A DNA stretch of 36,567 nucleotides from Butyrivibrio sp. Lineage in GTDB: Bacteria; Bacillota; Clostridia; Lachnospirales; Lachnospiraceae. The translations under genes and the position numbers were made by a program. Position 1 is the first letter of the stretch; each line of letters begins with the position of its first letter. Below, piece after piece: positions 766 to 36,288 of the stretch. The stretch covers positions 1-36,567 of the forward strand of contig JAFXTN010000039.1 of NCBI GenBank assembly GCA_017535785.1, read 5' to 3'. Under the pieces are notes generated by a model. The model worked only from the letters and a program-made list of their open reading frames with translations. It was not told the DNA's origin and ran no database searches.

Positions 766-773
766 TGCTGTCG

Positions 774-13924: not shown

Positions 13925-13950
13925 TTCCTTATGCGTTATTTAATTTCAGT

Positions 13951-20006: not shown

Positions 20007-20801
20007 ATGGAAAGAGGAATTGACGCTTATAAACTAAAGATAATAGCAATGCTATTTATGGTACTGGATCATGTAAAGACATATATATTTAATTGTCCTG
20101 TGTTTCCCGTACATATGCCGAATTGGGTTTCATTGATCACCAGATTTGTATCACCGCTGTTTGTGTATCTGATGATAGACGGATTCTATCATACAAGGAG
20201 CCGTAAAAAATATCTGATCAGACTGTTTACGGCTGCGATCATCATGTGGACAGGAAATACGATCATCAACTATATTTTCCATAGTGTGGACCCCAATACG
20301 GGACAATATACTTTCAGATCATTGGTACTGCAGGGAAATAACATTTTTCTCTCCCTTGCTCTTTCATTTTCCGTTATCTGGTGTTTGGAAAATATAAGAC
20401 AAGGCAAGAACAAGCTCTTGTATGGTGCACTTGCATTTATCACCACTTGTTTATGTTTGTCATTTTATGTTGAAGGTGGATCATCCGTATTATCCGTTGC
20501 AGTGATCATATGGTTCTTCTATGAAAAAAAGAATTTGCAATGTATTGCGATCGGAGTTTTATGCGTCGTTAGGCTGCTCTTAATGCTTATGGTATATGCT
20601 TTAGGAAGCACCGGATCGACTCTGTATGCTTATATGTGCTACAACAACGGATGGGCAGCCGCCCTGGTTATCCCCCTTATACTTTTATATAACGGAGAAA
20701 GAGGCAAGAATACCAAATTCACCAAGTACCTCTTTTACGTTATCTATCCCGCTCATTTATGGATACTTATGATCGTACGTTACCTTATCGAACAGCACTG
20801 A
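20007..20801 (+). CDS. TraX family membrane acyltransferase-like protein
   Basis: The 264-residue protein has eight or nine membrane helices. It starts with RGIDAYKLKIIAMLFMVLDHVKTYIF, the TraX-type opening with an Asp-His pair in the first helix, followed by SPLFVYLMIDGFYHTRSRKKYLIRLF. TraX was first known as the F-pilin N-acetylase, but chromosomal homologues in Firmicutes are distant relatives of membrane acyltransferases and their substrates are unknown. The start at 20007 has AGGAGG at 7 nt. It is a single plus-strand gene, divergent from the yicC operon and convergent with the gph-like gene. No other conjugation gene is nearby, so a role in pilin acetylation is unlikely here. Confidence 0.85.
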   Translation: MERGIDAYKLKIIAMLFMVLDHVKTYIFNCPVFPVHMPNWVSLITRFVSPLFVYLMIDGFYHTRSRKKYLIRLFTAAIIMWTGNTIINYIFHSVDPNTGQYTFRSLVLQGNNIFLSLALSFSVIWCLENIRQGKNKLLYGALAFITTCLCLSFYVEGGSSVLSVAVIIWFFYEKKNLQCIAIGVLCVVRLLLMLMVYALGSTGSTLYAYMCYNNGWAAALVIPLILLYNGERGKNTKFTKYLFYVIYPAHLWILMIVRYLIEQH

Positions 20802-20822: not shown

Positions 20823-21482
20823 TTAGAATAGTTTTTCAATAGCATCCAGTAATTGCATGGGCTCTTTTACGAAAATATCAGCACCGAGGGTCCTTAAGAA
20901 ATCCTCATCTCTAAAGCCCCAAAGCACAGATATACAAGGGAGTTCCGAGTTCTTGGCTGTCTCAAAGTCAACCTCGGAATCTCCTATATAAACAGCTTCT
21001 TCCTGCGTACTGTGAAGCTCCTTAAGCGCTTCAAGCACCATATCCGGCGCAGGTTTTCTGTTTATGCCGTCCTTTTCTCCGATAGCAACATCTATAGCAT
21101 CGGAAAAGAACTTTTTATTCAGCTCTTTTACCGCCGAATCTATCTTATTGGAAACAATAGCCATCTTGTATCCGCGCTTTATGAGTTCTTTCATCACAAG
21201 AAGGATCCCGTCATAGGGACCCGTCTTATCAAGGCAGTGCGCATTATAATGTTCTTTAAATATCGGAAGCATCTCATCGATCGTTTCGGAAGGAGTGCCC
21301 TCCGGAACAGTCTCGCACAGAGCATTTCGGATTCCGTTTCCGAAAGCTTTCCTGTACTCGTCTTCCGTATGTGTAGGGAAACCGAATCTGTTCATCACAT
21401 GGTTCATAGAAACCGTAAGATCGGTAAGTGTGTTGAGCACTGTACCGTCCATGTCGAAAATTATTGTATTTATAGACTTCAT
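20823..21482 (-). CDS. HAD-superfamily hydrolase, phosphoglycolate-phosphatase-like
   Basis: This 219-residue HAD subfamily IA phosphatase has motif I FDMDGTVLNT, a helical cap (residues ~18-85), motif II AIVSNK, motif III KPAPDMV and motif IV YIGDSEVDFETA. These resemble Gph, but the exact substrate is not readable. GAAGGAGAG lies ~4 nt before the ATG. It follows pgmB after 60 nt and looks like the last gene of the GH3/ABC operon. There it could remove unwanted phosphates or belong to the same sugar pathway. Confidence 0.9.
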   Translation of the reverse strand: MKSINTIIFDMDGTVLNTLTDLTVSMNHVMNRFGFPTHTEDEYRKAFGNGIRNALCETVPEGTPSETIDEMLPIFKEHYNAHCLDKTGPYDGILLVMKELIKRGYKMAIVSNKIDSAVKELNKKFFSDAIDVAIGEKDGINRKPAPDMVLEALKELHSTQEEAVYIGDSEVDFETAKNSELPCISVLWGFRDEDFLRTLGADIFVKEPMQLLDAIEKLF

Positions 21483-21542
21483 ATTCTCTCCTTCAACAGC
21501 TCAGAGTATATACAATGCCTGCCTCCAAAGAGAGATACGATA

Positions 21543-22178
21543 TCAGATCTCCATAATGCTGCTGATTGGTCTGTCAGTCTTATGATAGTTTGCGGCCTCA
21601 CCGATTCCGATGGCATACATACCTGCCGCCTTGGCTGCATCTATTCCCGACTCGGCATCCTCAACCACAGCGCAGTACTGCGGATCTATGCCAAGCATCT
21701 CTGCAGCTTTTAAGAAAACCTCTGGATCGGGCTTAGACTTCGTAATGTTGGTTCCATCCGAGATGGCATCAAAGAAATCAGTCATGCCGATCTTATTAAG
21801 GATAAGCTTGGTATTCTTACTTGATGATCCGATAGCAAGCTTGCATCCGGCATTCCTAAGCTCTGTGAGTTTCTCTCTGACTTTACCCACAACATCGTCG
21901 GGAGTCATTGTTTCAAGACTTTCTCTGTAATACTCATTTTTTTCTTCGGCAAGAGCCTTCTTTTGTTCCTCAGAATATCTCTTGGCACTCTTTTCAAGTA
22001 TGATCTCAAGAGAATCCATTCGGCTCACGCCTCTGAGTCTGTTATTTATTTTTCTGTCAAATTCAATATTAAGCTTATCTGCTATTTTTTTCCAGGCTAA
22101 ATAGTGAAGCTCATCCGTAAAAACAAGCACACCGTCCAGATCAAATATATATGCTTTTATTTCTTTATCCATTATCAT
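21543..22178 (-). CDS. pgmB: Beta-phosphoglucomutase
   Basis: The enzyme converts beta-glucose 1-phosphate to glucose 6-phosphate via a phospho-Asp. The 211-residue HAD protein has FDLDGVLVFTDELHYLAWK, with the nucleophile Asp13 and the general acid/base Asp15. The cap motif NRLRGVSRMDSLEIIL, the phosphate-binding AIGSSSKN, KPDPEVFLKAAEML and VVEDAESGIDAAKAAGM are also present. All are specific for beta-PGM among HAD proteins. The start overlaps the esterase stop by 4 nt. Its presence in the GH3/ABC operon implies that a beta-sugar 1-phosphate is made by the pathway. No maltose- or trehalose-phosphorylase gene is seen in the window. Confidence 0.93.
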   Translation of the reverse strand: MIMDKEIKAYIFDLDGVLVFTDELHYLAWKKIADKLNIEFDRKINNRLRGVSRMDSLEIILEKSAKRYSEEQKKALAEEKNEYYRESLETMTPDDVVGKVREKLTELRNAGCKLAIGSSSKNTKLILNKIGMTDFFDAISDGTNITKSKPDPEVFLKAAEMLGIDPQYCAVVEDAESGIDAAKAAGMYAIGIGEAANYHKTDRPISSIMEI

Positions 22179-22942
22179 ACACTTCTTTTACAATTTCTGT
22201 ACTTATCGGTTCTGGGAATCCAGTCCATGAATTCCTCTACTATCAGATTCCAAAATCTCCACTCGTGAGCATAGCCTTCCTTCTTCACAAATGTCACAGG
22301 AAGTCCGCACTTTTCAAGATGATCCTTGAACTGAATATTGTTCTTCCACAGCATATCCTTTTCGCCACAGGCAAGGAAAATAGGAGGAAGTAATTTACCT
22401 TTGCATTTTTCAGCAAGAGCGTAAGGGTCGTATTCGCTTCCCTTAAGGTTACTTGTCGCATCTTCTGTCTCAACCGCTGCAGAGAACGCACCTATGGCTG
22501 CAAATTTTTCCGGATTTGTAAGTCCATGGATAAGCGCACCATAGCCACCCATGGAAAGTCCCGCGATATATCTGTCGGAAACCTTATTGGATACAGGAAA
22601 CATGTTTTCAACAAATTCAGGAAGCTCCTCAGAGATAAATCCGAAGAAGTCGTCTCCCTTATCCTCTGTGCGATACCACTTGTTCTCTCCCGAAGGCATC
22701 ACCACAGCAATCTTTCTCTCTTCAGCAAAGACCTCAACATTGGAATAGCTTGTCCATTCCGTTGCACTGTTTCCAAGTCCGTGAAGAAGATAGATAACCG
22801 GATATTTCTCCTCTATCACATGTGTTGCTTTCTCTCCCGTAACACCAAGAGCTTCCGGTATTGTTGTGGAAGGGATTATAACAGTAAGCTCAACTGATCT
22901 TACAAGCTTGCGTGAAATCATCTTTACATTAAAATGTGCCAT
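22175..22942 (-). CDS. Alpha/beta-hydrolase esterase (EstA/esterase-D-like family)
   Basis: The 255-residue protein has the oxyanion region VIYLLHGLGNSATEW, the nucleophile elbow GLSMGGYGA, an acid in CGEKDML and the catalytic His in GYAHEWRFW. It is related to tributyrin, acetyl and feruloyl esterases of the putative-esterase family. There is no signal peptide, so it acts in the cytoplasm. The start codon is joined to the end of the permease gene (TAATG), and pgmB overlaps its stop. The context suggests deacylation of an imported sugar or glycoside, but the acyl group is not known. Confidence 0.9.
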   Translation of the reverse strand: MAHFNVKMISRKLVRSVELTVIIPSTTIPEALGVTGEKATHVIEEKYPVIYLLHGLGNSATEWTSYSNVEVFAEERKIAVVMPSGENKWYRTEDKGDDFFGFISEELPEFVENMFPVSNKVSDRYIAGLSMGGYGALIHGLTNPEKFAAIGAFSAAVETEDATSNLKGSEYDPYALAEKCKGKLLPPIFLACGEKDMLWKNNIQFKDHLEKCGLPVTFVKKEGYAHEWRFWNLIVEEFMDWIPRTDKYRNCKRSV

Positions 22943-23958
22943 TATGCCATCTCCTTAGTCTTAGGTCTGAAAAGCCTGTTTATGAATGCTGTGATCCTTG
23001 CGCCATCATTGATATAAGCCATGATAAGAGCAAGTACTACACCGGTAACTATGGTCTGGATCGACGCATCTATCTTAAAAGCGTTGAGACCATATCCGAA
23101 AACTTCCATTCCAAGGGCTGCTACAAATATTCCCCAAGGCATGTTTGTAAAGTTTGCCAAAAAGAGTCCGATAAGAACCGGAGCCATAGATCCAAACATA
23201 AGTCCTGTGGAGCTTAAGTTATTGAGGGGCTCAACCTTGGCTGTGCACGCATTTAACATAGCGGCACATCCAAGTAAAGCTCCTATGAGAACATAGGTAA
23301 GGATAATGTTCTTCTTTTCATTAACACCGGAATTGACCGCAAGTCTTGAGTTGTTTCCAAGACTCTTTGTGTCATATCCGAACTTAGTCTTATATAGCAA
23401 AAACCAAACTGCCAAGCAGATAACAAGAAGCAATATAAAAATATATGGCATCTCATTTACTGCAAGTATCTTTTTAAGGTATACCGCGTCAGCTGCATAG
23501 AAATTTACACCAAGGCCGTTGTAGATAAGTCCTCCGAGAGCCTCAAATACCATGACAACTCCGAGAGAAATGATCATATTGGGCACCTTGAGAGTCACAT
23601 ACAAGACAGCCTCAACAAGAGCAAGTACAATGCACGAAGCTATACATGTAAGTAAGATTCCCATAGAGCCAAGCCCAAGGCTCATTCCTATATTTCCGCC
23701 GATGATAGCGCCAAGCATAACGATCGCACCGGGGCCAAAGTCCCATCTTCCGCCTGAAAGCGGGATTGCAATCGCAAGTGCAACTATCGTATTCAAGACG
23801 GTATCATGAAGCATTCCCTTTATGATATAGCTCTTAAAGAAATTCATATTACCGCTTGCCAGCGCGATCACTGCAAAGACAATATACATTCCGATCGGAA
23901 ATAAAAGTGTCATTGCATACCTTTTAAGTTTACTCATTCCATCTGCTTTTCGGTTCAT
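22942..23958 (-). CDS. CUT2-type sugar ABC transporter permease (first of two)
   Basis: This inner-membrane subunit of a ribose/galactose-type transporter has 338 residues and about nine helices. The conserved central loop GGRWDFGPGAIVMLGAIIG is a variant of the BPD_transp_2 signature, and the stretch LGNNSRLAVNSGVNEKKNIILTYVLIGALLGCAA matches RbsC-like proteins. The start at 23958 has GAGG at 7 nt. It lies 15 nt after the binding-protein gene, and its stop overlaps the esterase start. A second permease in the same operon suggests a heterodimeric pore. Confidence 0.93.
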   Translation of the reverse strand: MNRKADGMSKLKRYAMTLLFPIGMYIVFAVIALASGNMNFFKSYIIKGMLHDTVLNTIVALAIAIPLSGGRWDFGPGAIVMLGAIIGGNIGMSLGLGSMGILLTCIASCIVLALVEAVLYVTLKVPNMIISLGVVMVFEALGGLIYNGLGVNFYAADAVYLKKILAVNEMPYIFILLLVICLAVWFLLYKTKFGYDTKSLGNNSRLAVNSGVNEKKNIILTYVLIGALLGCAAMLNACTAKVEPLNNLSSTGLMFGSMAPVLIGLFLANFTNMPWGIFVAALGMEVFGYGLNAFKIDASIQTIVTGVVLALIMAYINDGARITAFINRLFRPKTKEMA

Positions 23959-23973
23959 AGTGATACCTCAATA

Positions 23974-25176
23974 TTATTTGTTTGCAGCGATATCGCTAAG
24001 GCTGCGATTTGTAAGAGTGTTGAGCTGCTCAAGTGTAGCATCTGCGTTGTTTGAGATAATGCAGTTCTTAAGCTCTTCTGCTGTTACGCATCCGTTTGCT
24101 CCGTCATCGGGAATGATGTACTTCTGATAATCAGCAAGATCATCCTTGTTCTTGATAACGGGATATCCGGCAACACCGTTCACAATACTGCCCTCGTTGT
24201 ATTTGCCTTCAGCGCTGTCACTGTAGCTGTTACCTTCGATCGCATTGATAAGACGTGCAACACAGCTTGCGATAGCCTGTGTATGATTGTTGTTACCGCA
24301 TGCGATGAGCTCACCGCTGTCCATAAGTGAAGCTACTGATGTGTCATAGCCCATTGCGATAAGCTTGATTCCGCTTCCCTGGATTGCAGGATATACAAAA
24401 TCAAGACCTGAACTCATTCCGAAGATAGCATCCATACCTGCTGTAGCGTTAACAAGATCCTTGGTATTCTGCTGAATATCATCGGCTGTCATTCCGCTTG
24501 CAAATGTAAGCTCATCAACTGTGATACCCGCTGCTGAAAGCTTGTTCTTGAAGCCGTCGTAAATTGCGGGAGCGTCTGAAAATGCCCATGCAGGGAAAGA
24601 GATTCCGCCGATGTGTGTAACACCGCTGTCTGCAACAGCCTCTGCATACTCTTCACCAAGTGCATTTAAATCTCCGCCAAACTGTCTTGTTCCGCCTACA
24701 AAGAATTTGCTCTCCATTCCGGCAAGGTCTTCTTCTGTGATCTGATCAAGTGCTACTGCATAGTAAACGCCAGCCTCTTCACATGTGCTGAGTGCCGCAA
24801 CAATATTGGTGTCATATCCGCTGATGATAGCGTTGCATCCCTTGCTGATAAGGTTCTCAACACAATCAAGCTGAGCATCGTCATCGTAGTAGGTTGATTC
24901 ATATTCAAAGCTTACGTTCATATTCTTTGAAAGATAATCGCAGAACTTCTGAATGTTCTCGCCCTGAGAATCAGTCCACTGGTACATAACAATTCCGATC
25001 TTATAAGTATCGCCTGTTGCCTCATTGACATCGGCAGCTGTTTCCTCTGCAATCGTTGTAACCTCTTTGGCGCCATCATTTGCGCCTGCTCCGTTTCCTG
25101 CAGCAGCTCCGCATCCTGTCAAAAGACTTACAGATAAAGCCGCAGTCACAAGTAATTTGAAAATATTCCTTCTCAT
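23974..25176 (-). CDS. Sugar ABC transporter substrate-binding lipoprotein (RbsB-like)
   Basis: The 400-residue protein has a lipoprotein signal (LLTGCG lipobox, Cys at residue 22), a Gly/Ala/Glu-rich linker and a type-I periplasmic binding fold. It begins YKIGIVMYQWTDSQGENIQKFCDYL and includes LISKGCNAIISGYDTNIV and GVTHIGGISFPAW. These features match the PBP1 class that serves CUT2 transporters. It has an ~90-residue C-terminal extension past the fold. AAAGGAG lies 6 nt before the ATG. The ligand is not readable; context suggests a small glycoside. Confidence 0.92.
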   Translation of the reverse strand: MRRNIFKLLVTAALSVSLLTGCGAAAGNGAGANDGAKEVTTIAEETAADVNEATGDTYKIGIVMYQWTDSQGENIQKFCDYLSKNMNVSFEYESTYYDDDAQLDCVENLISKGCNAIISGYDTNIVAALSTCEEAGVYYAVALDQITEEDLAGMESKFFVGGTRQFGGDLNALGEEYAEAVADSGVTHIGGISFPAWAFSDAPAIYDGFKNKLSAAGITVDELTFASGMTADDIQQNTKDLVNATAGMDAIFGMSSGLDFVYPAIQGSGIKLIAMGYDTSVASLMDSGELIACGNNNHTQAIASCVARLINAIEGNSYSDSAEGKYNEGSIVNGVAGYPVIKNKDDLADYQKYIIPDDGANGCVTAEELKNCIISNNADATLEQLNTLTNRSLSDIAANK

Positions 25177-25204
25177 AATACTTCTCCTTTAAAATAAAAA
25201 TATA

Positions 25205-26179
25205 TTATCGTGGCATCTCTCTGACTGTCTTATTTTGTCTGAGAGTTAGGCCAATAATAACTATGAAAATGATTCCCTTCACAAGGGTTATGTATTCCTG
25301 CGCAACCCCTGCCACAGTAAGTCCGTTAGCCAAAAGAGTATATGTTATCGTTCCGATTATTGCTGCCTCCATACGGCTCTTAGCTCCGCCGTTTAAGTTC
25401 ATACCACCAAGGATTACCGCAACCATTACATCCATCTCTTTTCCCGCGCCTATGTTCTTACCGACATTGCCGCCTCTGGCAAGAAGGAAAAGGCTTGCTA
25501 TTCCTACGCATACACCTGCGATAACATAGCACCAGAACATAACAGCCTTAACATTGGTTCCGCTCTGGATAGCGCTTAGCTTGTTATCTCCGATCGCCTT
25601 GCAGTACTTTCCAAGCTTGGTGTAGTTAAAGAGGATAAGTCCTGCAATTATCACAACAGCCATGGCCGCGATCGACAATCTTATATCGCTCTTAAACGGC
25701 ATTATCAGGTTGTAGTGCATTATGTTGATCCTGCCGTCATTGAGAGAAAGAATGTAAGTCACTATTCCTCTTGCAATGAACATGACCGCAAGTGAAGCAA
25801 TGATACTCATAAGCCCCAGATAAGCAGTAACAAACCACATAAAAAGATACAAAAGAACCGACACAACAATCGAGATTACAATGGAAAACCCAAGGTTCTC
25901 TGTCTTGTTAAGCACGAGCGTTATGACCAGACTGCAAAGCCCCGCCACAGCTCCCGATGCTATATCAACGGTCCCGTGTCCGAACATAAAGATCATTCCG
26001 CAGGATATAATCATGAGAACACACATCTGACCAATAAGGCTTTTTAGGTTATATGCCGAGAAGATCTGACCTTTCGTCATAACAGAAAAGCCAAGGACAA
26101 CGGCCAGGAAACTTCCGTAACATACAACGGCATTTCTGTTGTTTTTAATAAAAGAAATAAGTTTATTTGAATTCATCAC
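25205..26179 (-). CDS. CUT2-type sugar ABC transporter permease (second of two)
   Basis: The 324-residue protein has about nine helices. GHGTVDIASGAVAGLCSLVITLVL is the RbsC-like signature region, AIGDNKLSAIQSGTNVKAVMFWCYVIAGVCVGIASLFLLAR is the conserved coupling loop and following helix, and GKEMDVMVAVILGGMNLNGGAKSRMEAAIIG is the usual C-terminal pore motif. It is more typical of RbsC than the first permease. The start is GTG at 26179 or ATG at 26176; AAGGG lies 8 nt before the GTG. It begins 14 nt after the ATPase gene. Confidence 0.92.
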   Translation of the reverse strand: MMNSNKLISFIKNNRNAVVCYGSFLAVVLGFSVMTKGQIFSAYNLKSLIGQMCVLMIISCGMIFMFGHGTVDIASGAVAGLCSLVITLVLNKTENLGFSIVISIVVSVLLYLFMWFVTAYLGLMSIIASLAVMFIARGIVTYILSLNDGRINIMHYNLIMPFKSDIRLSIAAMAVVIIAGLILFNYTKLGKYCKAIGDNKLSAIQSGTNVKAVMFWCYVIAGVCVGIASLFLLARGGNVGKNIGAGKEMDVMVAVILGGMNLNGGAKSRMEAAIIGTITYTLLANGLTVAGVAQEYITLVKGIIFIVIIGLTLRQNKTVREMPR

Positions 26180-26193
26180 ATCAAGTTCCCTTC

Positions 26194-27699
26194 TCAGATC
26201 ATGTACGAAATGATATCCTGCTCACCAAGCTCTGCACTCCTTTGCGCTCTTCCGGATATCGCTCCGTCCTTCATGATCAGAATCTCATCGCTCATACCGA
26301 TCAGTTCCTGCATCTCTTCCGAAATGAGAAGTATCGCATATCCCTGTTTCTTGAGCTCTGTAATAAGCTGATACATCGTTGTCTTAACTCCTATATCAAC
26401 ACCTCTTGTAGGACTGTCCATGATGATTATCTTGGAGTCGTTTCCTATCCACTTTCCAAAAGAAACCTTTTGCTTGTTACCGCCGGAAAGCTCTCCAACA
26501 GCCTGATTCATTGATGAACACTTAATATTCAGATCATCTATTATCTTCTGCGCAAACTCTTTTTCCGTCTTCTTTGTAATAAAGAATTTCATCTTACTTA
26601 AGTTTGCAAGAACGAGATTATCCTTGATCGATGCCGGAAGCACCAATGCTTCCTTATCTCTGTCCTTGGAGATATAGCCTATATTATTTGAAAGAGCATC
26701 CTTAACGCTTTTTATCTCAGACTCTTTATCCGAGATAAATGTAGTAACACGACCCTTCTTTAATTTCTCAAGTCCGAAGATCGCACGGCCAAGCTCATGC
26801 ATTCCGCTTCCCGAAAGTCCTGCAATACCGAGGATCTGTCCTTCTTTTAGGTCAAAAGAAACATCGCAGAGAGTATCACTCTCCAGATTCTCAGCTCTGA
26901 CGATCACCTTGCCGTCGCACTTTCCGTCGTAGTCACTCCTGTAATAGTCGCCCTTTATTTCTCTTCCTACCATGGACTTCTTGATCCGGTCCTCATTGAA
27001 CTCATCCTTTGAAATCGTTTCAACAAGATTACCGTCTCTGAGAACCGTAAGTACATCGCAGTTGTCCATGAGTTCCTGAAGATCGTGAGAAATAAGTAGC
27101 ACTGCTTTATTATCATCACGAAGCTTATGGATTAGTTTATACAAGATCTCTCTTCCGTGCTGTGAAAGAGCTGTTGTGGTTTCATCTACAATAAAGAGCT
27201 CAGGATCGTAATAAACCGCCTTTGCAACCTCAACAAGCTTTCTCTCCTCAAAGCTGAGCATTGCAGCAGTTGCTGAAGGCTCGATATCTTCGATACCTAT
27301 GGACAAAAGAGCTTTCTTAGCCTCTTCTTCCATCTTCCTTCCGTCAACGATCCCTCTTTTTATAAAGCGCTTCTCATCTCCCAAAAAGATGTTCTCCGCT
27401 ACAGTAAGTCCGTCAATCGTTCCGGCCTCCTGAACTATCATTGTGATGCCGTTATCTATGGCATCCATTCTGCTTGAAGGTGTGTACTTCTTGCCATCAA
27501 GGAACATCTCGCCGGAAGTAACTGTATGTATTGCGCTTATCATTGAAGATATTGTTGATTTACCTGAACCGTTCTCTCCGATAAGGCCTAGGATCTCACC
27601 TCTGTTTATCTTGATGCTCACCTTATTTACTGCGACAACATCATTAAATTTTTTGGTCAGATCTTTTGTTTCTATCAGGAGTTTTCTTTTTTCTTCCAT
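26194..27699 (-). CDS. CUT2-type sugar ABC transporter ATPase (RbsA/MglA-like)
   Basis: This double-ATPase subunit powers the transporter. The first domain (about 1-240) has Walker A GENGSGKST, a divergent signature LSFEERKLVEVAKAVYY and Walker B LFIVDETTTAL. The second domain (~265-501) has a degenerate Walker A, GLSGSGMHELGRAIFG, as is normal for this family. It keeps the signature LSGGNKQKVSFGKW and Walker B KIIIMDSPTRGVD. The frame extends one codon to TTG 27702, but ATG 27699 is preceded by AGAGG at 8 nt and is chosen. It lies 12 nt after the GH3 gene. Confidence 0.95.
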   Translation of the reverse strand: MEEKRKLLIETKDLTKKFNDVVAVNKVSIKINRGEILGLIGENGSGKSTISSMISAIHTVTSGEMFLDGKKYTPSSRMDAIDNGITMIVQEAGTIDGLTVAENIFLGDEKRFIKRGIVDGRKMEEEAKKALLSIGIEDIEPSATAAMLSFEERKLVEVAKAVYYDPELFIVDETTTALSQHGREILYKLIHKLRDDNKAVLLISHDLQELMDNCDVLTVLRDGNLVETISKDEFNEDRIKKSMVGREIKGDYYRSDYDGKCDGKVIVRAENLESDTLCDVSFDLKEGQILGIAGLSGSGMHELGRAIFGLEKLKKGRVTTFISDKESEIKSVKDALSNNIGYISKDRDKEALVLPASIKDNLVLANLSKMKFFITKKTEKEFAQKIIDDLNIKCSSMNQAVGELSGGNKQKVSFGKWIGNDSKIIIMDSPTRGVDIGVKTTMYQLITELKKQGYAILLISEEMQELIGMSDEILIMKDGAISGRAQRSAELGEQDIISYMI

Positions 27700-27711
27700 C
27701 AAATTATCCTC

Positions 27712-29409
27712 TTATAATCTTGTATCGAGTCTTCCGCAGAAAGGATCGATAGGACTTTTACCCTTAAACTCACTCTTTCCGGTAAGCTTTTTAATAAGCT
27801 CATCAACCACTTCATCATTTCCCGAATAACAGTTGATAAAGGTCTTAACCCTCGGGAAGTCCAGGAGATGATAAGGGTTTTCAAGTGAAACAAAAACTGT
27901 CTTTACATCGTTTATATACAATCCGCAATCAGCGCCCATGGGCTGTTTCCACTCTATCCTGACAACAGTCTGATTACTCTTGGTCGCAAGATTGGCTACA
28001 TACAGCATCAGATCATACTTCGAAGTTATCTCTTCATATTTGGAAGTGAAGCCTTCTCCGTATGGCTGTGGTTCAAACTCATCTACTTCAAAACCTTCCT
28101 TGATAAGCTTATCCTTAACTCTGTCTATTACAGGATTGGTCTTATAGATCGAATACCCCTCACCTACAGGTTCTATCCTATAAAGAAGGATCCTCTTATA
28201 TTTCTCAGGTGTTATGGGAAGCACTCCCTTTTCTTCTTTAACAAGAGTGATCGCTTTGTCAGCGCATTCCCTCGCCCATTCCTTGTGCTGCGGACATCCG
28301 ATGATCTCTTTTGCTCTCTTAGGATCGGGACGATCAGTCTTCTTGTGTAATCCAAGAGCCGCTTTCATCGCAAGGATCCTTGTAACAGCTTCATCAAGTC
28401 TCTCTTTGGTGATTATTCCTTCCTTGATACCGTCAAGCATGAAGTGGTAATCCTCTTCAAGGTTTCTGGCAAAGAGGAACATATCGCAGCCTCTTGCTAT
28501 CGATTCCGGAACAGCTCTTCTTCTGCCCATAGCCAGCATGTATCCTGCCATCGTTGTCGCATCCGTAGATATCACGCCGTTAAATCCAAGCTTTTCTCTA
28601 AGTAACCCCTGCAAAAGAGCTTTCGACAAAGTCGCAGGCATGCAATCATCATCCTTTATAGCCGGATCCATCTCTTTTTCCCAAGCAGGAAGCATTATGT
28701 GGCCGGCCATTACGCTCAAAACGCCTTTATCTATTCCTGCCTTGTATACTTCGCCGTAGGTCTTCATCCACTCATCAACGGACAAATCGTTTATTGAAGT
28801 AACAAGATGCTGGTCTCTCTCATCTCGTCCGTCACCGGGGAAATGCTTAATCGTCGCCGCAAGTCCATGGCTCTGAACCTCTTTCACATAGGCAAGTCCC
28901 ATGCGCTTAACTCTCTCAGCATCTGAGCCAAAGGTTCGTGTGTTGGTGATCGGATTTCTGAAATTACTGTCTATATCTATGATCGGCGCAAATGCCCAGT
29001 TGGCACCGACAGCTTCAGCTTCCAAAGCACAGGCTCTTGCCATCTTAGCTGCAATGCTCTCATCATCCGTAGCTGCTATCTCCATGGGAGAACCTACTAA
29101 AGTGCCCTCCGTCACAATGCCGTTGCCACCCTTCTCAAGGTTAGCTGCAATGAGTGGATATATCTCTGATCTCTCCACCACGGTATCAGTCGCATGTATC
29201 GCTTCCTCTGTAGACATCACCCTATACATAAACGCACCGGGCTTTAATATATTGAAGATATAATCTACGGTCTCTTTGTCATCTCTTTTAAGAAGTACAC
29301 AAAAGAGCTGAGCCGCCTTCTCTTCAGTAGTTAATCTATTTAAAGTTTTGTTCACCCATTCGATATCTTCATCACTTAGAAAGAACGGATTTCCTTTTAA
29401 ATCAATCAT
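27712..29409 (-). CDS. GH3 glycosidase or phosphorylase with NagZ-type Asp-His dyad
   Basis: This family-3 glycoside enzyme acts on beta-glycosides or beta-N-acetylglucosaminides. From the start at 29409 it has 565 residues: a TIM-barrel domain (~20-360) with KHFPGDG, the acid/base loop RDQH (Asp199-x-His201, as in NagZ) and the nucleophile Asp283 in ISTDATTM, then an alpha/beta sandwich domain. There is no signal peptide, so it is cytoplasmic. GAGG lies 7 nt before the ATG at 29409; upstream GTG 29421 and ATG 29415 are less likely. In published GH3 enzymes a His acid/base has been linked to phosphorolysis. Together with pgmB this favours a phosphorylase role (inference). It is the first gene of the operon and lies opposite the ROK gene. 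Confidence 0.88.
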   Translation of the reverse strand: MIDLKGNPFFLSDEDIEWVNKTLNRLTTEEKAAQLFCVLLKRDDKETVDYIFNILKPGAFMYRVMSTEEAIHATDTVVERSEIYPLIAANLEKGGNGIVTEGTLVGSPMEIAATDDESIAAKMARACALEAEAVGANWAFAPIIDIDSNFRNPITNTRTFGSDAERVKRMGLAYVKEVQSHGLAATIKHFPGDGRDERDQHLVTSINDLSVDEWMKTYGEVYKAGIDKGVLSVMAGHIMLPAWEKEMDPAIKDDDCMPATLSKALLQGLLREKLGFNGVISTDATTMAGYMLAMGRRRAVPESIARGCDMFLFARNLEEDYHFMLDGIKEGIITKERLDEAVTRILAMKAALGLHKKTDRPDPKRAKEIIGCPQHKEWARECADKAITLVKEEKGVLPITPEKYKRILLYRIEPVGEGYSIYKTNPVIDRVKDKLIKEGFEVDEFEPQPYGEGFTSKYEEITSKYDLMLYVANLATKSNQTVVRIEWKQPMGADCGLYINDVKTVFVSLENPYHLLDFPRVKTFINCYSGNDEVVDELIKKLTGKSEFKGKSPIDPFCGRLDTRL

Positions 29410-29424
29410 AATCATCCTCACGAA

Positions 29425-29448
29425 CTTATTTAATTGATTTAATTATAT
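29425..29448 (-). promoter_or_regulatory. Operator-like motif A overlapping the GH3 operon -10
   Basis: The minus strand reads ATATAATTAAAT, two bases, then ATTAAATAAG. The TATAAT inside it is the -10 hexamer of the operon. The first 19 positions match motif B (29558-29577) on the plus strand, except for the two central bases, in the same orientation relative to the gene. A regulator bound here would block transcription. Confidence 0.6.
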
Positions 29449-29469
29449 CATTGGCTTTTAATTCTTCAA
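29442..29469 (-). promoter_or_regulatory. Promoter of the GH3/ABC/esterase/pgmB operon
   Basis: Minus-strand TTGAAG (29469-29464), a 16-bp spacer and TATAAT (29447-29442) lie ~33 bp upstream of the GH3 start codon. Confidence 0.65.
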
Positions 29470-29480
29470 TCACTTATTTA

Positions 29481-29500
29481 AACAATTTAATTAAGTTGTT
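29481..29500. promoter_or_regulatory. 20-bp near-perfect palindrome between divergent promoters
   Basis: AACAATTTAATTAAGTTGTT is self-complementary except for one T-G pair at positions 6/15. It lies upstream of both divergent promoters, so it could be the primary operator of the ROK regulator or a site for an activator. It shares the TTAATTAA core type with motifs A and B. Confidence 0.55.
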
Positions 29501-29534
29501 TTTGTGAAAAGTATACAAATAATAGGTGCTATGA

Positions 29535-29564
29535 TTGACATCACGTTTCTTTTTTCCATATAAT
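29535..29564 (+). promoter_or_regulatory. Promoter of the ROK regulator gene
   Basis: TTGACA (29535-29540), an 18-bp spacer and TATAAT (29559-29564) are both consensus hexamers. It starts transcription ~30 bp upstream of the ATG at 29602. The -10 lies within motif B. Confidence 0.75.
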
Positions 29565-29577
29565 TAAATAGATTAAT
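29558..29577 (+). promoter_or_regulatory. Operator-like motif B overlapping the ROK gene -10
   Basis: ATATAATTAAAT, two bases, then ATTAAT. This is the same motif as A in front of the GH3 operon and has the same relation to the -10. It suggests autoregulation of the ROK gene together with regulation of the operon. Confidence 0.6.
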
Positions 29578-29601
29578 TTTTAAACAAGAAGGGAGAACCA
29601 A

Positions 29602-30798
29602 ATGCAGAACAACGGCAAGAATCAGTTGGCCATTAAGATATCCAACCAATCCGCCATCAGGAAAATGATATATCTGGATGGGCCTGTCCTCAGAGCAGAT
29701 ATCGCGGAATCCTTGGGTCTTACCCTGCCAACCATCACTACCAATATAGTGAAGCTGATAAATACCGGCATCGTATATAACGATAAAGACGCCGTTGTTT
29801 CTACCTACGGAAGAAGTGCTCTCCCCGTCAATATAGTTCCCGATTCCAGATTCTTTATAGGAATAGAGATCACAACTCGCTCCAGAGAGCTGTACTTAAC
29901 AGATTACAGAGGTAACATCGCATATCAGGTCACAGACACCGCTGTCTTTTCCGATTACGATGAAGTAATTAAGAGTGCCTCAAGTCTCATCAACACTGCT
30001 CTCTCTTCAGGAGCTGTCTCTACAGAAAAGATATACGGAATCGGTATCAGTATGCCCGGTCTTATCGACAGTGATACCGGAATGCTCCTTGCTCATCGTC
30101 AGTACGACTGGTACAACAAGAACGTTGTTTCCGATATAAGAGCTCAGATCTCTTACTCAGGTCCCATATCGATCGGTAACAACGCCTATGCAAGAAGCCT
30201 TGCGGCTCAGCTCTTTATGAGAAAAGAGCTATCTGCTGTTCCTTCATTTCTATATCTGTACGTCTCTACCGGAATTGCGGCTCCTTTTATCACCAACGAC
30301 AAGAGCCTCAAGATGGCCAATACCGGTACAGGTGAGCTCGGTTACATGATCATGGATGCTCATGCAGGTTTTGATTCATATGGTAGCTTGGGAAGTCTTA
30401 ACACCTTGGCGGGTGAAAGAATTATGAAAAAGAAGTATGCCAAGATCAAGGGTCTGCCTGACGATTATGATTCATCCTACATTCCCATCGCTCAAATTTT
30501 GGAAGATGCAAAAACAAACAAAAAGATCTCTGAGCTGGTTAAAAACTCTTGTTTCTATCTCGGTATAGGTGTTGCCAATGAAGATAATCTGGTAAGACCT
30601 CACACCATCCTTGTTGATGCAGAGTTCTTTACCACTGAAGAATATCGCAGTTACTTTGCGGATACCATCAAAAAGTATTCCTTCCGTCCGGATTCATTTG
30701 AGTTTAACTTCATCTATATAGACAGAAGCTACATAAACGGCCCCAGGAGCGCTGCTGCTCTCGCGATCAGAACAGATTTTGATGTCTATATTCCGTAA
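29602..30798 (+). CDS. ROK-family transcriptional regulator with lost kinase and zinc motifs
   Basis: This 398-residue regulator probably represses the divergent GH3 operon and itself. A winged helix-turn-helix covers residues ~15-75 (NQSAIRKMIYLDGPVLRADIAESLGLTLPTITTNIVKLI). A ROK domain follows, with GIGISMPGLIDSDTG well conserved. The catalytic positions are changed: DxGxT is replaced by GIEITTRS, the catalytic Asp of the usual NDANAAA motif is Asn (GNNAYARS), and the Cys-rich zinc loop reads FDSYGSLGSL with no Cys. So it is very likely a sugar sensor without kinase activity. GGGAG lies ~7 nt before the ATG. A terminator follows at 30832-30868. Confidence 0.92.
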   Translation: MQNNGKNQLAIKISNQSAIRKMIYLDGPVLRADIAESLGLTLPTITTNIVKLINTGIVYNDKDAVVSTYGRSALPVNIVPDSRFFIGIEITTRSRELYLTDYRGNIAYQVTDTAVFSDYDEVIKSASSLINTALSSGAVSTEKIYGIGISMPGLIDSDTGMLLAHRQYDWYNKNVVSDIRAQISYSGPISIGNNAYARSLAAQLFMRKELSAVPSFLYLYVSTGIAAPFITNDKSLKMANTGTGELGYMIMDAHAGFDSYGSLGSLNTLAGERIMKKKYAKIKGLPDDYDSSYIPIAQILEDAKTNKKISELVKNSCFYLGIGVANEDNLVRPHTILVDAEFFTTEEYRSYFADTIKKYSFRPDSFEFNFIYIDRSYINGPRSAAALAIRTDFDVYIP

Positions 30799-31337: not shown

Positions 31338-31574
31338 TCATATCATCTTATATCCGCAGTCACTCTTCTCGGGACCATCTATCCCTGATTCGTAGTGCGC
31401 TCTGAATTCCATGTTGATATCGCGGATTTCTTTCTTGCCATCGATATAATCCTGATACATCTCGGCAAGTCCTGACATGCAGCCGTCGCAGGATCCGCTG
31501 ATATTTCCGATCGATTCGGCCACTATTCTCTCCCGCTCCTCGCGGGTTGTATCTTTAATTAAGATGGAGTCCAT
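31338..31574 (-). CDS. Small conserved-looking Cys protein of unknown function
   Basis: The 78-residue acidic protein has CDGCMSG near residue 30, MYQDYIDGKKEIRDINMEFRAHYESGI in the middle and one more Cys near the end (KSDCGYKMI). The CxxC and the third Cys suggest metal or redox chemistry, but I know no family function. The start at 31574 lies inside the end of the VanZ-like gene (20-nt overlap), with GGAGG at 6 nt. The C_GCAxxG_C_C gene follows after 10 nt, and both encode small Cys-bearing proteins. The overlap and strong Shine-Dalgarno support it as a real gene. Confidence 0.75.
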   Translation of the reverse strand: MDSILIKDTTREERERIVAESIGNISGSCDGCMSGLAEMYQDYIDGKKEIRDINMEFRAHYESGIDGPEKSDCGYKMI

Positions 31575-32127
31575 ACTTTCCTCCTCTATGCACAGAATTC
31601 CTGATCTTTCTGATCACAAACACGATCATTGCACCGATAGCCACCCCCATCGTATTCAAAATAAGATCATCTATATCAGTATGTCTTCCGTAGCAGATAA
31701 GCTGACTGATCTCAATCAAAAGAGTATAGCCAAAACCTGCAAGCACAGTCTTCTTGTAGGTATCAAGCTCCTTAAAGCATATAGGCCATACAATACCAAC
31801 CGGAATAAACATTGCGATATTTCCGATAACGTTCATAAGCCAGCCATCATATCTGTCCACCAGGAAAAAGAAAGGTTTAAAGCTTATAAGTTCATCAGGA
31901 TCCTGGTGGGGACCGATCCTAAGAGGCTCAATCTTCCCATCAACAAGATGGAATTCAAAGTAAACAAATCTCGATATCACTACAATACATATATATACAA
32001 GAAGCATCTGCAGTTCACGCTTCAAAGAAAACTGCTCACTCCTATACGCAACGGCTCCTCTAACGAATATCCATAGGACCGTTATAAAAGCAACCATCTG
32101 TGGAAAAGTAATTTCTATCATAACCAT
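31555..32127 (-). CDS. VanZ-like membrane protein
   Basis: The 190-residue protein has four or five membrane helices and the VanZ-type core: a helical hairpin with VIGNIAMFIPVGIVWPICF, then TVLAGFGYTLLIEISQLICYGRHTDIDDLILNTMGVAIG. The IEISQ and TDIDDLILNTMG motifs are characteristic. VanZ lowers teicoplanin susceptibility in the vanA cluster, but most homologues have no known role in resistance. The ATG at 32127 lies 1-2 nt after the ATPase stop, so it is the fourth gene of the amino-acid ABC transcript, an unusual place for it. Confidence 0.88.
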   Translation of the reverse strand: MVMIEITFPQMVAFITVLWIFVRGAVAYRSEQFSLKRELQMLLVYICIVVISRFVYFEFHLVDGKIEPLRIGPHQDPDELISFKPFFFLVDRYDGWLMNVIGNIAMFIPVGIVWPICFKELDTYKKTVLAGFGYTLLIEISQLICYGRHTDIDDLILNTMGVAIGAMIVFVIRKIRNSVHRGGKYGLHLN

Positions 32128-32128
32128 A

Positions 32129-32905
32129 TCACAACACCTTACTTAAAAATTCTTGAAGTCTTGGATGCTGCGGTTTTTCAAATATATCTTCAGGAGTGCC
32201 CTGCTCAAGAAGCTTACCGTCAGCCATGAAAAGTACTCTGTTGCCGACCTCACGGGCAAAGCCCATCTCATGAGTGACAACAACCATCGTCATTCCTTCA
32301 TCAGCAAGCTGCTTCATAACATCAAGAACCTCTCCTACCATCTCGGGATCGAGGGCTGATGTAGGCTCGTCAAACAGCATAACCTCAGGCTCCATCATAA
32401 GAGCTCTGACAATAGCAATACGCTGCTTCTGTCCGCCGGAAAGCTGTATGGGATATGCGTCAGCTCTGTCCTCAAGTCCGACTCTTTTTAAAAGCTCGAG
32501 AGCCTTCTTTTTGGCTTCCTCTTCGGGAACTTTTTTGACCTTAACGGGAGCAAGTATCATGTTTTCCATGATGGTCTTGTGAGGGAAAAGATTGAAATGC
32601 TGGAATACCATTCCCATCTTCTGCCTGTGAAGATCCATATTTACCTTAACCCATTTGCCGTTTTCGTCTTTGTATTTTTTCTTGGTTATATCAACGCCGT
32701 CAAAAATGATAGCACCGCCCGTAGGCTCCTCAAGGAGATTTAATGATCTGAGGAATGTGGACTTACCGCTTCCTGAAGGTCCGATAACAACCACAACATC
32801 TCCCTTGTCTATTTCTGCGGTAACACCGTCGAGAGCCTTGATGGCGCCGAAATTATAGTGTTTTTCCAAATCAGTGACCTGAATGATCTTATCTCTTGTC
32901 TCCAC
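32129..32905 (-). CDS. Polar amino-acid ABC transporter ATP-binding protein (GlnQ-like)
   Basis: The 258-residue ATPase has Walker [10 protein letters not shown], the Q-loop [11 protein letters not shown], signature [15 protein letters not shown], Walker [16 protein letters not shown] and the H-loop [12 protein letters not shown]. These are typical of the polar amino-acid uptake (HisP/GlnQ) family. A small insertion of charged residues ([17 protein letters not shown], ~75-91) follows the first strands. It begins with GTG at 32905, with GAGGAGG at 7 nt, and overlaps the end of the permease by 17 nt. Confidence 0.95.
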
Positions 32906-33677
32906 GGCTCATCCTCCTCTCAAAGTGTGCTATAAGTTTGCTTGTAGGGAAGCACAGGCAAAAATAGATCGCCGTAGCCACAAGCAAAGGCTCAATGATG
33001 ATAAATGTCGCTCCGCGGACCGCGTTAACAGCAGACATTATATCCTGAACACCGATCGTATATGTGATGGCAGATTCCTTGATGATAACAACGAACTCGT
33101 TGGCAATAGCCGGAAGGATATTCTTGATAGCCTGAGGCATGATGATGTATTTCATATTCTGGAACCAGCTCATACCAAGGCTTCTTGCAGCCTCTGTCTG
33201 TCCGCCGTCAATTGACTGGATTCCCGATCTCATGATCTCGCAAAGGTAAGCACCTGAGTTCATTCCGAGAGCAACTACGCCGGGGAAGAATCTGTCAAAC
33301 TTGATAAATCCAAAGAAAGTAAAGCTCGGAAGCTCAAAAAGAGCTCCAAACACACCGTAATAGATGATCGCAACCTGCACGATAACAGGAGTCGATCTTA
33401 ATATCTCAACATATGCCGTTGCAAGGAAAGCCAGAGGATTAAACTTACCAATGGCAACTCCCAATCCTCTCTCCCTCTGATGGCCCTCTTTATCAAGCCC
33501 AAGAAATGCAAAGGGACAAAAATTGGACATCCTCATTGCGGATAAGATGATCGCAAGGACGAAACCTATAGCTACAGTACACACTGAGAGCATCACCGTT
33601 ACAATGATACCCTGAACAAAAAGCTCAGCGTAAGGTGCGATCCTTCCGAAATTCTCGATTTGTACAAAATTATTCAT
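32889..33677 (-). CDS. Polar amino-acid ABC transporter permease
   Basis: The 262-residue permease has the HisM/GlnP layout: helices, a conserved [14 protein letters not shown] stretch and the EAA loop [29 protein letters not shown] (~175-205), which contacts the ATPase. Between the first helices there is an unusual hydrophilic loop ([24 protein letters not shown]) that most family members lack. GGAG lies 8 nt before the ATG at 33677. A hairpin (33711-33741) separates it from the binding-protein gene. Confidence 0.94.
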
Positions 33678-33710
33678 ACAGAATTCTCCAACAAAAAAAT
33701 AATTTAGTAA

Positions 33711-33741
33711 GAGGCATTGAAGCTCTTCGCATCAATGCCTC
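33711..33741 (-). terminator. Intercistronic hairpin between binding protein and permease
   Basis: GAGGCATTGA and TCAATGCCTC form a perfect 10-bp stem around an 11-base loop, followed on the minus strand by TTACTAAATTATTTTTTTG. It probably ends part of the transcription after the lipoprotein gene, so that more binding protein than permease/ATPase is made. Confidence 0.7.
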
Positions 33742-33782
33742 CAAATAATCATATCATAAATTTCATCTTATAAACTCATAGA

Positions 33783-34661
33783 TCATTTATTATCATCAAG
33801 AAGTCCCTCAATGATCTCTCCTGAAGCCTTCTCATTGGCTGTTGCGATGAACTCATCCATTGTACCGTCTTTAAGTGCCTGTGTGATAGCCTCGTTAACG
33901 CCCTTAAGAAGAGCGTCGTTTCCTTTGCTCACACCGACTGCAGAACCTTCTGCGCCCTCGTAAGGAACCTCAAGTGCAATGCAAAGATCCGGATAGTTCT
34001 TGGCATAGCTCTCAGCTACAGGCGTCTCGATATAAGCTCCGTCAAGCTTTCCTGCAAGAACCTCGGCCACGATATCTGTAACCTTTGTAAGCTGGATTAT
34101 ATCTGCTGATGAGCTGTATGTATTAGCAAGGTCAACCTGGATAGATCCTGTCTGTGCTCCGATCTCCAAATTGGAATTGTTTGTATCATCAAGACTCTTG
34201 AACTTATCTTTGTTGGCCTTTGATGTCACAAATGACTGTCCGCCAACATAGTAAAGCTCTGAGAAGTCCATGATAGCTTCACGCTTAGGATCGGGTGAAA
34301 GACCTGAAATTCCGATATCAACAGACTTAGTCTGAACTTCCATAAGTACACCGTCAAAATCAACGGGAACTATCTCAAGCTCAAGTCCGAGATAATCAGC
34401 AATATAACCTGCAAGCGCAATATCAAAGCCTGCAAGCTCGGGTGTTCCGTCCTCGTTTACCGAATAGAACTCATAAGGTGCAAAATCGGGTGATGTAGCT
34501 ACTGTAAGCTTACCCGGTGTAACTGTTGTGATCTGTTCTGTCTCTGTTTGTGCAGTCTCACCTGTGGTGCTCTGCGCATTATTATCCTTAGATGAACCGC
34601 AAGCAACAATACCGATTGTCATTGTAGCTATCATAATAGCTGCCATGATCTTTTTTCTCAT
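33783..34661 (-). CDS. Polar amino-acid-binding lipoprotein
   Basis: The 292-residue solute-binding protein has a lipoprotein signal (IGIVACGSS, Cys 21), a Ser/Thr/Gln-rich linker and a type-II periplasmic fold: KLTVATSPDFAPYEFYSVNEDGTPELAGFDIALAGYIA, then DFDGVLMEVQTKSVDIGISGLSPDPKR and SVDF-type contacts. These are typical of polar amino-acid (Glu/Gln/His/Cys-type) receptors. GGGAGG lies ~8 nt before the ATG. A promoter stands at 34704-34732, and an intrinsic hairpin follows the gene. Confidence 0.95.
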   Translation of the reverse strand: MRKKIMAAIMIATMTIGIVACGSSKDNNAQSTTGETAQTETEQITTVTPGKLTVATSPDFAPYEFYSVNEDGTPELAGFDIALAGYIADYLGLELEIVPVDFDGVLMEVQTKSVDIGISGLSPDPKREAIMDFSELYYVGGQSFVTSKANKDKFKSLDDTNNSNLEIGAQTGSIQVDLANTYSSSADIIQLTKVTDIVAEVLAGKLDGAYIETPVAESYAKNYPDLCIALEVPYEGAEGSAVGVSKGNDALLKGVNEAITQALKDGTMDEFIATANEKASGEIIEGLLDDNK

Positions 34662-34771: not shown

Positions 34772-36271
34772 TCAAAGACAGGAACCGTAAGCCTCCAAAG
34801 CACCTTTGTTTTTAATTACCTTAAGGTCTTTTATCACCGCATCAGTGAGTCCTTCTATCTCATTTAGATCCGTGTCCCACATCTTTGTATTTCCAAGAAC
34901 TGCTCTTACCAGTTCCTCATCTGATGTGTTCTTGTTTTCATAGTAAAACTCCAGCACCCATCTGTCATCGCTAACAACATAAGTATTTCCGGCAGGTCTC
35001 TTACAAACAAGTCCCGTATCCGTAAGCTCTTTTGCCTCGCTTGAATAGAATGCGATATAGGCTGCAAGTGACATTGTAAGACACACAGGGAGCTTTCCGT
35101 TCTTATCTATATAAGCCAGAAACGACGGCATATTCCTCGCTTTCCACTTACTTGTGGAATTGAGCGAAATAGACATAAGCTCATGATCAACGAACGGGTT
35201 GTTGAACCTGTCCTTAACTGCTGTCGCAAATTCAATAAGATCTTTTTCATCCAGATGATCCGTAAGAGTCGGAATGATCTCCTCATAGAGCATCTTGTTC
35301 ATAAAGCCCGCAATAATCTCATTATTCATGCAATCGCGAACAATGTTCTCTCCTGCGAGATATGCTCCGAGAACAAAGCCGGTATGCGCGCCGTTAAGAA
35401 TACGCACCTTGCGATGCTTATAAGGCATAACATCGGGAACAACATGTACGTTAACTCCCGCCTTCTTAAACGGAAGCCTGTCCTCAAGCTCCTTAGGCCC
35501 CTCGATGATCCATACGCCAAAGATCTCACCGACATCGATAAGCTCATCGTGATATCCGTTTTCTTTTTCCAGCCTTACGATCTCGGCTTCATCCCTGATC
35601 CTTCCGGGAACGATCCTGTCTACAAGAGTTGAGCAAAAGATATTGCTTTCGTTGATCCACTTCTTAAACTCATCCCCAAGCTTCCAGAGGTCAACATATT
35701 CATTGACGCACTTTAAAAGCTCTTTTCCGTTATTGTCTATGAGCTCACAGGAAAGCACTACAACACCGCTCTTGTCCGCCTTAAAACGCGCATAAAGGAC
35801 CTGTGTGAGCTTACCCGGAAAGATATTTGCTGGAATATCAGTGAATTTGCATGAAGGGTCAAAAGAGATCCCGGCTTCGGTGGTATTGGAAACTATAATA
35901 TCCAGATCGTCACTAACGGCAATATCAAGCATCTTTTCATAATCCTTCTCATTATAAGGATCAAGACACTCATCTACTGCGGTGATAACTCTCTTTCTGT
36001 CTACCTTCTCACCGTTCTCACTTCCCCTTAGATATAAGGTATAGAGCCCCTCCTGATCGTTTATTATCTTGGTAAGGCCCTGAGATATCGGCTGAACAAG
36101 CGCGATCTTACCGTTAAAGCCGGCTTTTTCATTGCTTATGTCAAAAAAATAGTCTACAAACGCCCTTAAAAAGTTGCCTTCGCCAAACTGAAGGACCCTG
36201 ATCGGCGCATCTTTCAATACATATCCGTCGTAACCTGATTTTTCCAAAATATCGTAATTTAATTGTTCCAT
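34772..36271 (-). CDS. uxaB: Tagaturonate reductase (mannitol dehydrogenase family)
   Basis: The enzyme reduces tagaturonate to altronate with NADH in galacturonate catabolism. The 499-residue protein has an N-terminal Rossmann domain opening with IRVLQFGEGNFLRAFVDYFFD, SNTTEAGISFD and LSCELIDNNG. It also has VDRIVPG, then the C-terminal catalytic domain with HRKVRILNGAHTGFVLGAYLAG, the Lys-containing signature of the polyol dehydrogenase family. The related fructuronate and mannitol dehydrogenases share the fold, but the opening matches UxaB best. The frame extends to a TTG at 36286, but GGAGG lies 8 nt before the ATG at 36271, which is chosen. Two LacI-type operators lie upstream. No altronate dehydratase or isomerase gene is in the window. 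Confidence 0.92.
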   Translation of the reverse strand: MEQLNYDILEKSGYDGYVLKDAPIRVLQFGEGNFLRAFVDYFFDISNEKAGFNGKIALVQPISQGLTKIINDQEGLYTLYLRGSENGEKVDRKRVITAVDECLDPYNEKDYEKMLDIAVSDDLDIIVSNTTEAGISFDPSCKFTDIPANIFPGKLTQVLYARFKADKSGVVVLSCELIDNNGKELLKCVNEYVDLWKLGDEFKKWINESNIFCSTLVDRIVPGRIRDEAEIVRLEKENGYHDELIDVGEIFGVWIIEGPKELEDRLPFKKAGVNVHVVPDVMPYKHRKVRILNGAHTGFVLGAYLAGENIVRDCMNNEIIAGFMNKMLYEEIIPTLTDHLDEKDLIEFATAVKDRFNNPFVDHELMSISLNSTSKWKARNMPSFLAYIDKNGKLPVCLTMSLAAYIAFYSSEAKELTDTGLVCKRPAGNTYVVSDDRWVLEFYYENKNTSDEELVRAVLGNTKMWDTDLNEIEGLTDAVIKDLKVIKNKGALEAYGSCL

Positions 36272-36288
36272 ATCCCGAACCTCCAAAA

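Follow-up and report, generated by a model that had tools for sequence, protein, structure and literature searches.

Gene Organization

The operon described here lies on a 36,567-nucleotide (nt) stretch of DNA from Butyrivibrio sp. (contig JAFXTN010000039.1 of assembly GCA_017535785.1, positions 1 to 36,567), which was analysed as a whole and is called the window. On the minus strand, the operon begins with a gene for a glycoside hydrolase family 3 (GH3) protein of the BglX/BglP family (27712..29421; PF00933, 209 bits). This is followed by the genes for a probable CUT2-type sugar ATP-binding cassette (ABC) transporter: an ATPase of the RbsA/AraG type with two ABC domains (26194..27702; two stretches of PF00005), a permease (25205..26179; PF02653), a putative substrate-binding lipoprotein with a lipobox-like start, LLTGCG (23974..25176), and a second permease (22942..23958; PF02653). 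Next come an esterase of the alpha/beta hydrolase type (22175..22942; PF00756, 83.5 bits), the beta-phosphoglucomutase (bPGM) gene pgmB (21543..22178; TIGR01990), and a HAD hydrolase resembling phosphoglycolate phosphatases (20823..21482). A gene for a ROK-family transcription regulator (29602..30798, plus strand; PF00480, 71.1 bits against a cut-off of 22.9) is divergent from the operon. The initial annotation of this DNA, made from the sequence alone, had listed these genes in this order, and each open reading frame (ORF) that it named was indeed found in place and in the family given. By ORF coordinates, neighbouring genes from GH3 through pgmB are never more than 28 nt apart, and where they overlap it is by 4 nt at most; the last HAD gene is separated from pgmB by 60 nt.

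Homology and gene neighbourhoods together suggest that the products of this operon break down small beta-glucosides by phosphorolysis: the GH3 protein would form beta-glucose 1-phosphate (beta-Glc1P) for PgmB. We give this reading a probability of about 0.83.

The GH3 Protein Resembles BglX/BglP

The window GH3 is homologous to BglX/BglP (PDB 5VQD, 5VQE) over its full length, with 48% identity, a match above those to hydrolases, and the two have the D-Q-H dyad and a two-domain fold in common. By analogy with other GH3 enzymes, D203 and H205 are the expected acid/base dyad and D287 the expected nucleophile; in the alignment, all three are kept in 124 of 124 family members, the window included. 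Of the 71 members outside the sister clade described below, 69 have Gln at position 204, and the Gln of D-Q-H is said to favour glucosides. Four members (L084, L120, L125 at 13889-15658, and L167) have D-H-H instead of D-Q-H. The start codon is a GTG at 29421, with an alternative ATG at 29415, and no signal peptide is evident on inspection by eye.

The phosphorylase assignment was first drawn from the Asp-x-His motif. That motif is insufficient as a sole mark, because NagZ-type hexosaminidases also have it, as does another, NagZ-like GH3 of the window's genome, in which the motif is DSH, with Ser where the window GH3 has Gln204. The assignment itself stands: phosphorolysis by the window GH3 is well supported by its homology to BglX/BglP.

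PgmB and the Question of the Donor Sugar

PgmB scores 252.8 bits and so passes the curated TIGR01990 cut-off of 189.4; its nearest solved structures are 3nas, 4gib, and 1lvh. The active-site signature of beta-phosphoglucomutases, DxD and GVSR, is present as FDLDGV and GVSRMDS. A dedicated mutase would be needed for a route through beta-Glc1P, because ordinary alpha-phosphoglucomutase does not accept the beta anomer.

A different sugar phosphate might nevertheless be involved if the GH3 were a phosphorylase acting on beta-N-acetylglucosamine (beta-GlcNAc) or another beta-hexoside, with pgmB acting on the product. BglX also accepts GlcNAc and uses beta-GlcNAc 1-phosphate (PMC8950772, in the part consulted), and the ROK protein is nearest the NagC model, although under its cut-off. 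This alternative is quite unlikely given that PgmB passes the bPGM equivalog model with its motifs kept, that nagA, nagB, and a GlcNAc kinase are absent among the operon's family matches, and that residue 204 is typically Gln rather than the Ser of the NagZ-like GH3. A glucosyl donor remains the preferred reading.

Linkage of pgmB to GH3 Across Relatives

Relatives of the window GH3 were drawn from three sources. Genome contigs gave 26 loci. A 150-genome sample of the window's family gave 36 stretches, which represent 37 of the 39 places found in genomes other than the window's own (2 fragments were excluded). Additional genomes from a sample of 397 gave another 64 stretches, with 6 places excluded as partial or weak. 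One extra stretch came from another family of the same phylum. Four near-identical rows (>97%), a weak outlier (L105), a partial sequence (L029), and an outgroup (L172) were removed before counting, leaving 124 distinct members, including the window. This GH3 family is present, at an E-value of 1e-90 or better, in 71 of the 397 genomes sampled from the window's bacterial family, its own included; at most three candidates were scored per genome in that sample, so further copies may be missed.

Partner genes were sought inside the fetched stretches, which reach at most about 10 kb to either side (for 25 of the 124, one flank is shorter than 5 kb), and bPGM was called by profile, whose scores split cleanly (at least 255 bits versus 34). 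A bPGM gene lies within 10 kb of GH3 in 50 of the 124 members, and a second HAD family, here called HADx, is near GH3 in 43. The other 31 have neither, and in 10 of these one flank is shorter than 5 kb. The linked bPGM is on the GH3 strand in 49 of 50 cases (the exception is L073), and in 23 it overlaps GH3 or sits within 150 nt. By chance, a bPGM would be expected within 10 kb of a gene at a mean frequency of 0.0094, or about 1%, a figure calculated for 38 genomes from their rounded sizes and their bPGM counts. The initial annotation had proposed to look for co-occurrence of GH3 and pgmB in relatives and had named its lack as a refuting outcome; co-occurrence is far above this expectation, and the check did not refute the proposal. 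Outside the window's family, Paenibacillus records and a contig labelled Spirochaetales (L022-L025, L027, L030, L031) likewise have pgmB overlapping or adjoining GH3.

Two further arrangements were seen. At G641:C74:2641-4157, a partial GH3 match, not included in the counts, has a bPGM match 27 nt away, and at L078:6947-9076 (minus strand) a GH78 rhamnosidase-like domain is fused to a beta-phosphoglucomutase domain, 25 nt from GH3.

A Sister Clade with a Different HAD Partner

In a tree of all 124 members, a branch with full SH-aLRT support parts 53 GH3 proteins (group III, the sister clade) from the rest. Within group III, 43 members have HADx, none has bPGM, and 10 have neither; among the 71 members outside it, 50 have bPGM, none has HADx, and 21 have neither. 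Fisher's test on the 50/0 versus 0/43 split gives p = 1.6e-27, a statistic that ignores kinship. At L125, where both partners lie between two GH3 genes, each GH3 was assigned the nearer partner (from the first GH3, bPGM is 312 nt and HADx 7,611 nt away), and the clean split depends on that assignment. A 63-row tree made with a mixture model has the same kind of split, with 23 rows lacking bPGM on a fully supported branch.

When BglX is added, it groups with L073 and L130 (63% to L130), in a supported set of six whose other five members are all pgmB-linked. Thus, the enzyme that has been assayed falls in a clade where linkage to pgmB is also seen. The 124-row tree and the tree with BglX come from a quick search without a mixture model, with a long-branch warning, so that the borders between groups may shift; the division into groups I, II, and III was made by hand on the former, and the window is in group I. 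A relative of the window's last HAD gene occurs in only 1 of the 28 group I loci, the window itself, and its product falls under the cut-off of each equivalog model among the 25 families listed out of 34. The initial annotation had counted this gene in the operon; it is present, on the same strand, but is probably an accessory gene outside the conserved module.

HADx is an unnamed HAD-fold family, found for example at L104:10861-11706 (minus strand) and in 42 other group III loci, usually directly beside GH3. Group III loci often hold UxuA, UxaC, and GH2, which are glucuronate genes. It is conceivable, at a little under even odds, that BglX-like GH3 proteins form a broad set of retaining phosphorylases, each clade with its own HAD-fold partner for its beta-sugar 1-phosphate: PgmB in most clades, the window's among them, and HADx in group III, where the GH3 would act on a different glycoside, perhaps a beta-uronide. 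If so, HADx would be an undescribed mutase or phosphatase for the group III sugar phosphate, and the sister clade would point to a further sugar-phosphate enzyme.

GH65 as an Alternative Source of Beta-Glc1P

The classical source of beta-Glc1P for PgmB is a GH65 phosphorylase. In the genome of the window, two bPGMs exceed the cut-off and a single GH65 is present (contig C25); this GH65 adjoins the second bPGM, not the pgmB of the operon. Among 38 genomes, picked for carrying a GH3 of this family from outside the sister clade, bPGM is present in all 38 and GH65 in 20. In 14 of the 28 genomes with GH3-linked pgmB, no GH65 match was found; the completeness of these 14 is 77 to 100%, and 12 of them reach at least 92%, so that an individual absence carries limited weight.

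These counts bear on the possibility that the GH3 is a hydrolase, either a beta-glucosidase or a hexosaminidase, and that pgmB serves another enzyme. Such an arrangement is unlikely, since it would leave unexplained the full-length match to BglX, the linkage of pgmB in 50 of 124 members, and the genomes in which no GH65 was detected to supply the mutase, while the one GH65 of the window's genome has a bPGM of its own. Phosphorolysis by GH3 feeding PgmB, the core claim of the initial annotation, is supported by the same homology, linkage, and GH65-less genomes, and by the sister clade, an internal control in which no GH3 has a nearby bPGM of its own (0 of 53).

GH65 genes or fragments are also found near BglX-like GH3 genes in L115 (G588:C147), L117 (G626:C9), and L168 (G717:C234), which would place two kinds of beta-Glc1P-forming enzyme in one cluster. 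Apparent GH65-bPGM fusions were seen at G077:C34:72587-74425 and G754:C4:60832-62772, where the GH65 and bPGM matches fall in open frames of equal length (967 and 996 residues); G077 is also the genome of the GH78-bPGM fusion.

Proposed Pathway

In the proposed pathway, the CUT2 importer would take up a small, probably decorated beta-glucoside, and the cytoplasmic esterase might then remove an acyl group, the weakest step of the scheme. By homology to BglX/BglP, the GH3 protein would move the glucosyl unit to Asp287, with His205/Asp203 as the acid/base, and inorganic phosphate would accept it to give beta-Glc1P with retained configuration. PgmB, judging by its family, would turn this product into glucose 6-phosphate. 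The ROK protein may repress both divergent promoters until a sugar ligand arrives. The net gain would be one ATP saved per glucose.

Several points weigh against this pathway. Twenty-one of the 71 members outside the sister clade have no bPGM in the stretch fetched; of the 53 such members whose flanks both reach 5 kb or more, 12 have none. Fourteen of the 21 belong to 11 genomes that were searched, each of which has a bPGM elsewhere. The bPGM of L117 adjoins GH65 genes rather than GH3, and L073, one of the two rows nearest BglX, has pgmB on the opposite strand. The sample held one further genome from the window's genus, G291, and it lacks this GH3, which makes the operon accessory. The generality of GH3 phosphorolysis has reportedly been disputed. 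Because BglX also accepts GlcNAc, the donor sugar is uncertain, and BglP acts on cello-oligosaccharides (PMC8950772, in the part consulted), substrates that need no esterase.

Transporter, Esterase, and Likely Substrates

The best NCBIfam models for the ATPase are AraG, XylG, and RbsA, all of which it matches under their cut-offs. Profile searches gave no binding-protein family match for the lipoprotein, and the CUT2 call is drawn from the ATPase and the two permeases. A match of the lipoprotein to RCC1_2 (22.5 bits at a cut-off of 22) looks spurious. Relatives of this protein occupy the same position in L007, L008, and L028. The order in L008 is identical (ROK, GH3, ATPase, permease, binding protein, permease, esterase, pgmB), and L007 matches the window up to its contig end; L028 has the window order but lacks the ROK gene, and the esterase before its pgmB belongs to a different family.

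Since phosphorolysis is reversible in principle, the operon could run in reverse and make glucosides from beta-Glc1P for export. This is very improbable: the transporter is of the binding-protein-dependent importer type, and the genes around GH3 in members of its family include some for catabolic enzymes, among them rhamnosidases and sulfatases. Breakdown of imported glucosides is the reading retained here.

Sulfatases are present in 15 of the 28 group I loci and GH78 rhamnosidases in 19 of the 21 group II loci; these cap enzymes, and the uronate genes above, were counted per locus by phmmer matches to representatives, with thresholds chosen by hand. A common theme may be a cap-removing enzyme, then GH3, then bPGM. 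On that view, decorated plant-type glucosides are a likely food. Neighbouring genes suggest rhamnosyl-glucosides where GH78 is present, sulfated glucosides where sulfatases are, and acylated ones in the window. The nearest solved structure to the window esterase is the esterase 4rgy. That the substrate is a small acylated beta-glycoside, as first proposed, is a weak guess drawn from this PF00756 protein.

Regulation

The best NCBIfam match of the ROK protein, to NagC, is 94.6 bits over residues 11-344, under the cut-off; a putative N-terminal DNA-binding helix was read by eye, and no ROK zinc cysteines were seen on inspection of the sequence by eye. The 180-nt spacer between the divergent genes (29422-29601) holds promoter-like sites in both directions. 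A candidate operon promoter (29442..29469, minus strand), identified by consensus match only, reads TTGAAG-16-TATAAT with a TG before the second hexamer; it is among the two best of 16 promoter-like sites in the region, where 17.0 are expected. The candidate ROK promoter (29535..29564, plus strand), TTGACA-18-TATAAT, matches 12 of 12 consensus letters. Between the two lies a near-perfect 22-nt palindrome (29480..29501, strand-neutral; 20 of 22 positions self-complementary), a candidate ROK operator. This role is suggestive only, as a palindrome just as good appeared in 11 of 500 dinucleotide shuffles when the spacer was randomised.

Other Features of the Window

Elsewhere, the window contains a transfer-messenger RNA gene (773-1122, minus strand) with the tag peptide ANTELAAA, a TraX-family gene (20007-20801, plus strand; PF05857), and a gene for a protein weakly like VanZ (31555-32127, minus strand; 48 bits, far under the cut-off of 375). 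An amino-acid-type ABC transporter (32129-34661) adjoins a tagaturonate reductase-like gene (34772-36286, minus strand; 561 bits against a cut-off of 359).

Comparison with Known Systems

The window's importer is probably of the same class as MglBAC-like CUT2 systems, of which Mgl transports small beta-galactosides, but has two unlike permeases and a binding protein without a family match.

Retaining phosphorolysis of beta-glycosides is known from two characterised GH3 proteins (PMC8950772, as are the following statements on the origin of BglP and the activity of Nag3, in the part consulted). One, BglP, came from a metagenomic screen; the window GH3 likely catalyses the same reaction but sits in an operon with a CUT2 transporter, an esterase, and pgmB. 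The other, Nag3 of Cellulomonas fimi, is a GH3 protein with a His acid/base that was reported to be a phosphorylase; it is set apart from the window GH3, by description only, by its connection to GlcNAc and peptidoglycan recycling. In the GH65-PgmB pathway (maltose, kojibiose, trehalose type), which is also present in the window's genome, PgmB likewise receives beta-Glc1P. There, however, GH65 acts on alpha-glucosides with inversion to yield beta-Glc1P (PMC7178133, in the part consulted), whereas the window GH3 is predicted to be retaining and to act on beta-glucosides.

Both the GH3 beta-glucoside phosphorylase, as a kind of enzyme, and the logic of GH65-PgmB are therefore already known. The initial annotation had called the coupling of GH3 phosphorolysis to bPGM undescribed. 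A limited literature survey, which did not include the original BglP study, found no such coupling, and no physiological pathway for BglP was found in the literature consulted in part; since the phosphorylase itself is known, novelty could lie only in the operon coupling. As far as surveyed, the retaining beta-glucoside version, with its dedicated operons and split of HAD partners, appears to be undescribed, and the operon seems to assemble known parts into a new pathway variant. Linkage to PgmB would supply retaining GH3 phosphorolysis with a physiological pathway, one that is common in the window's bacterial family.

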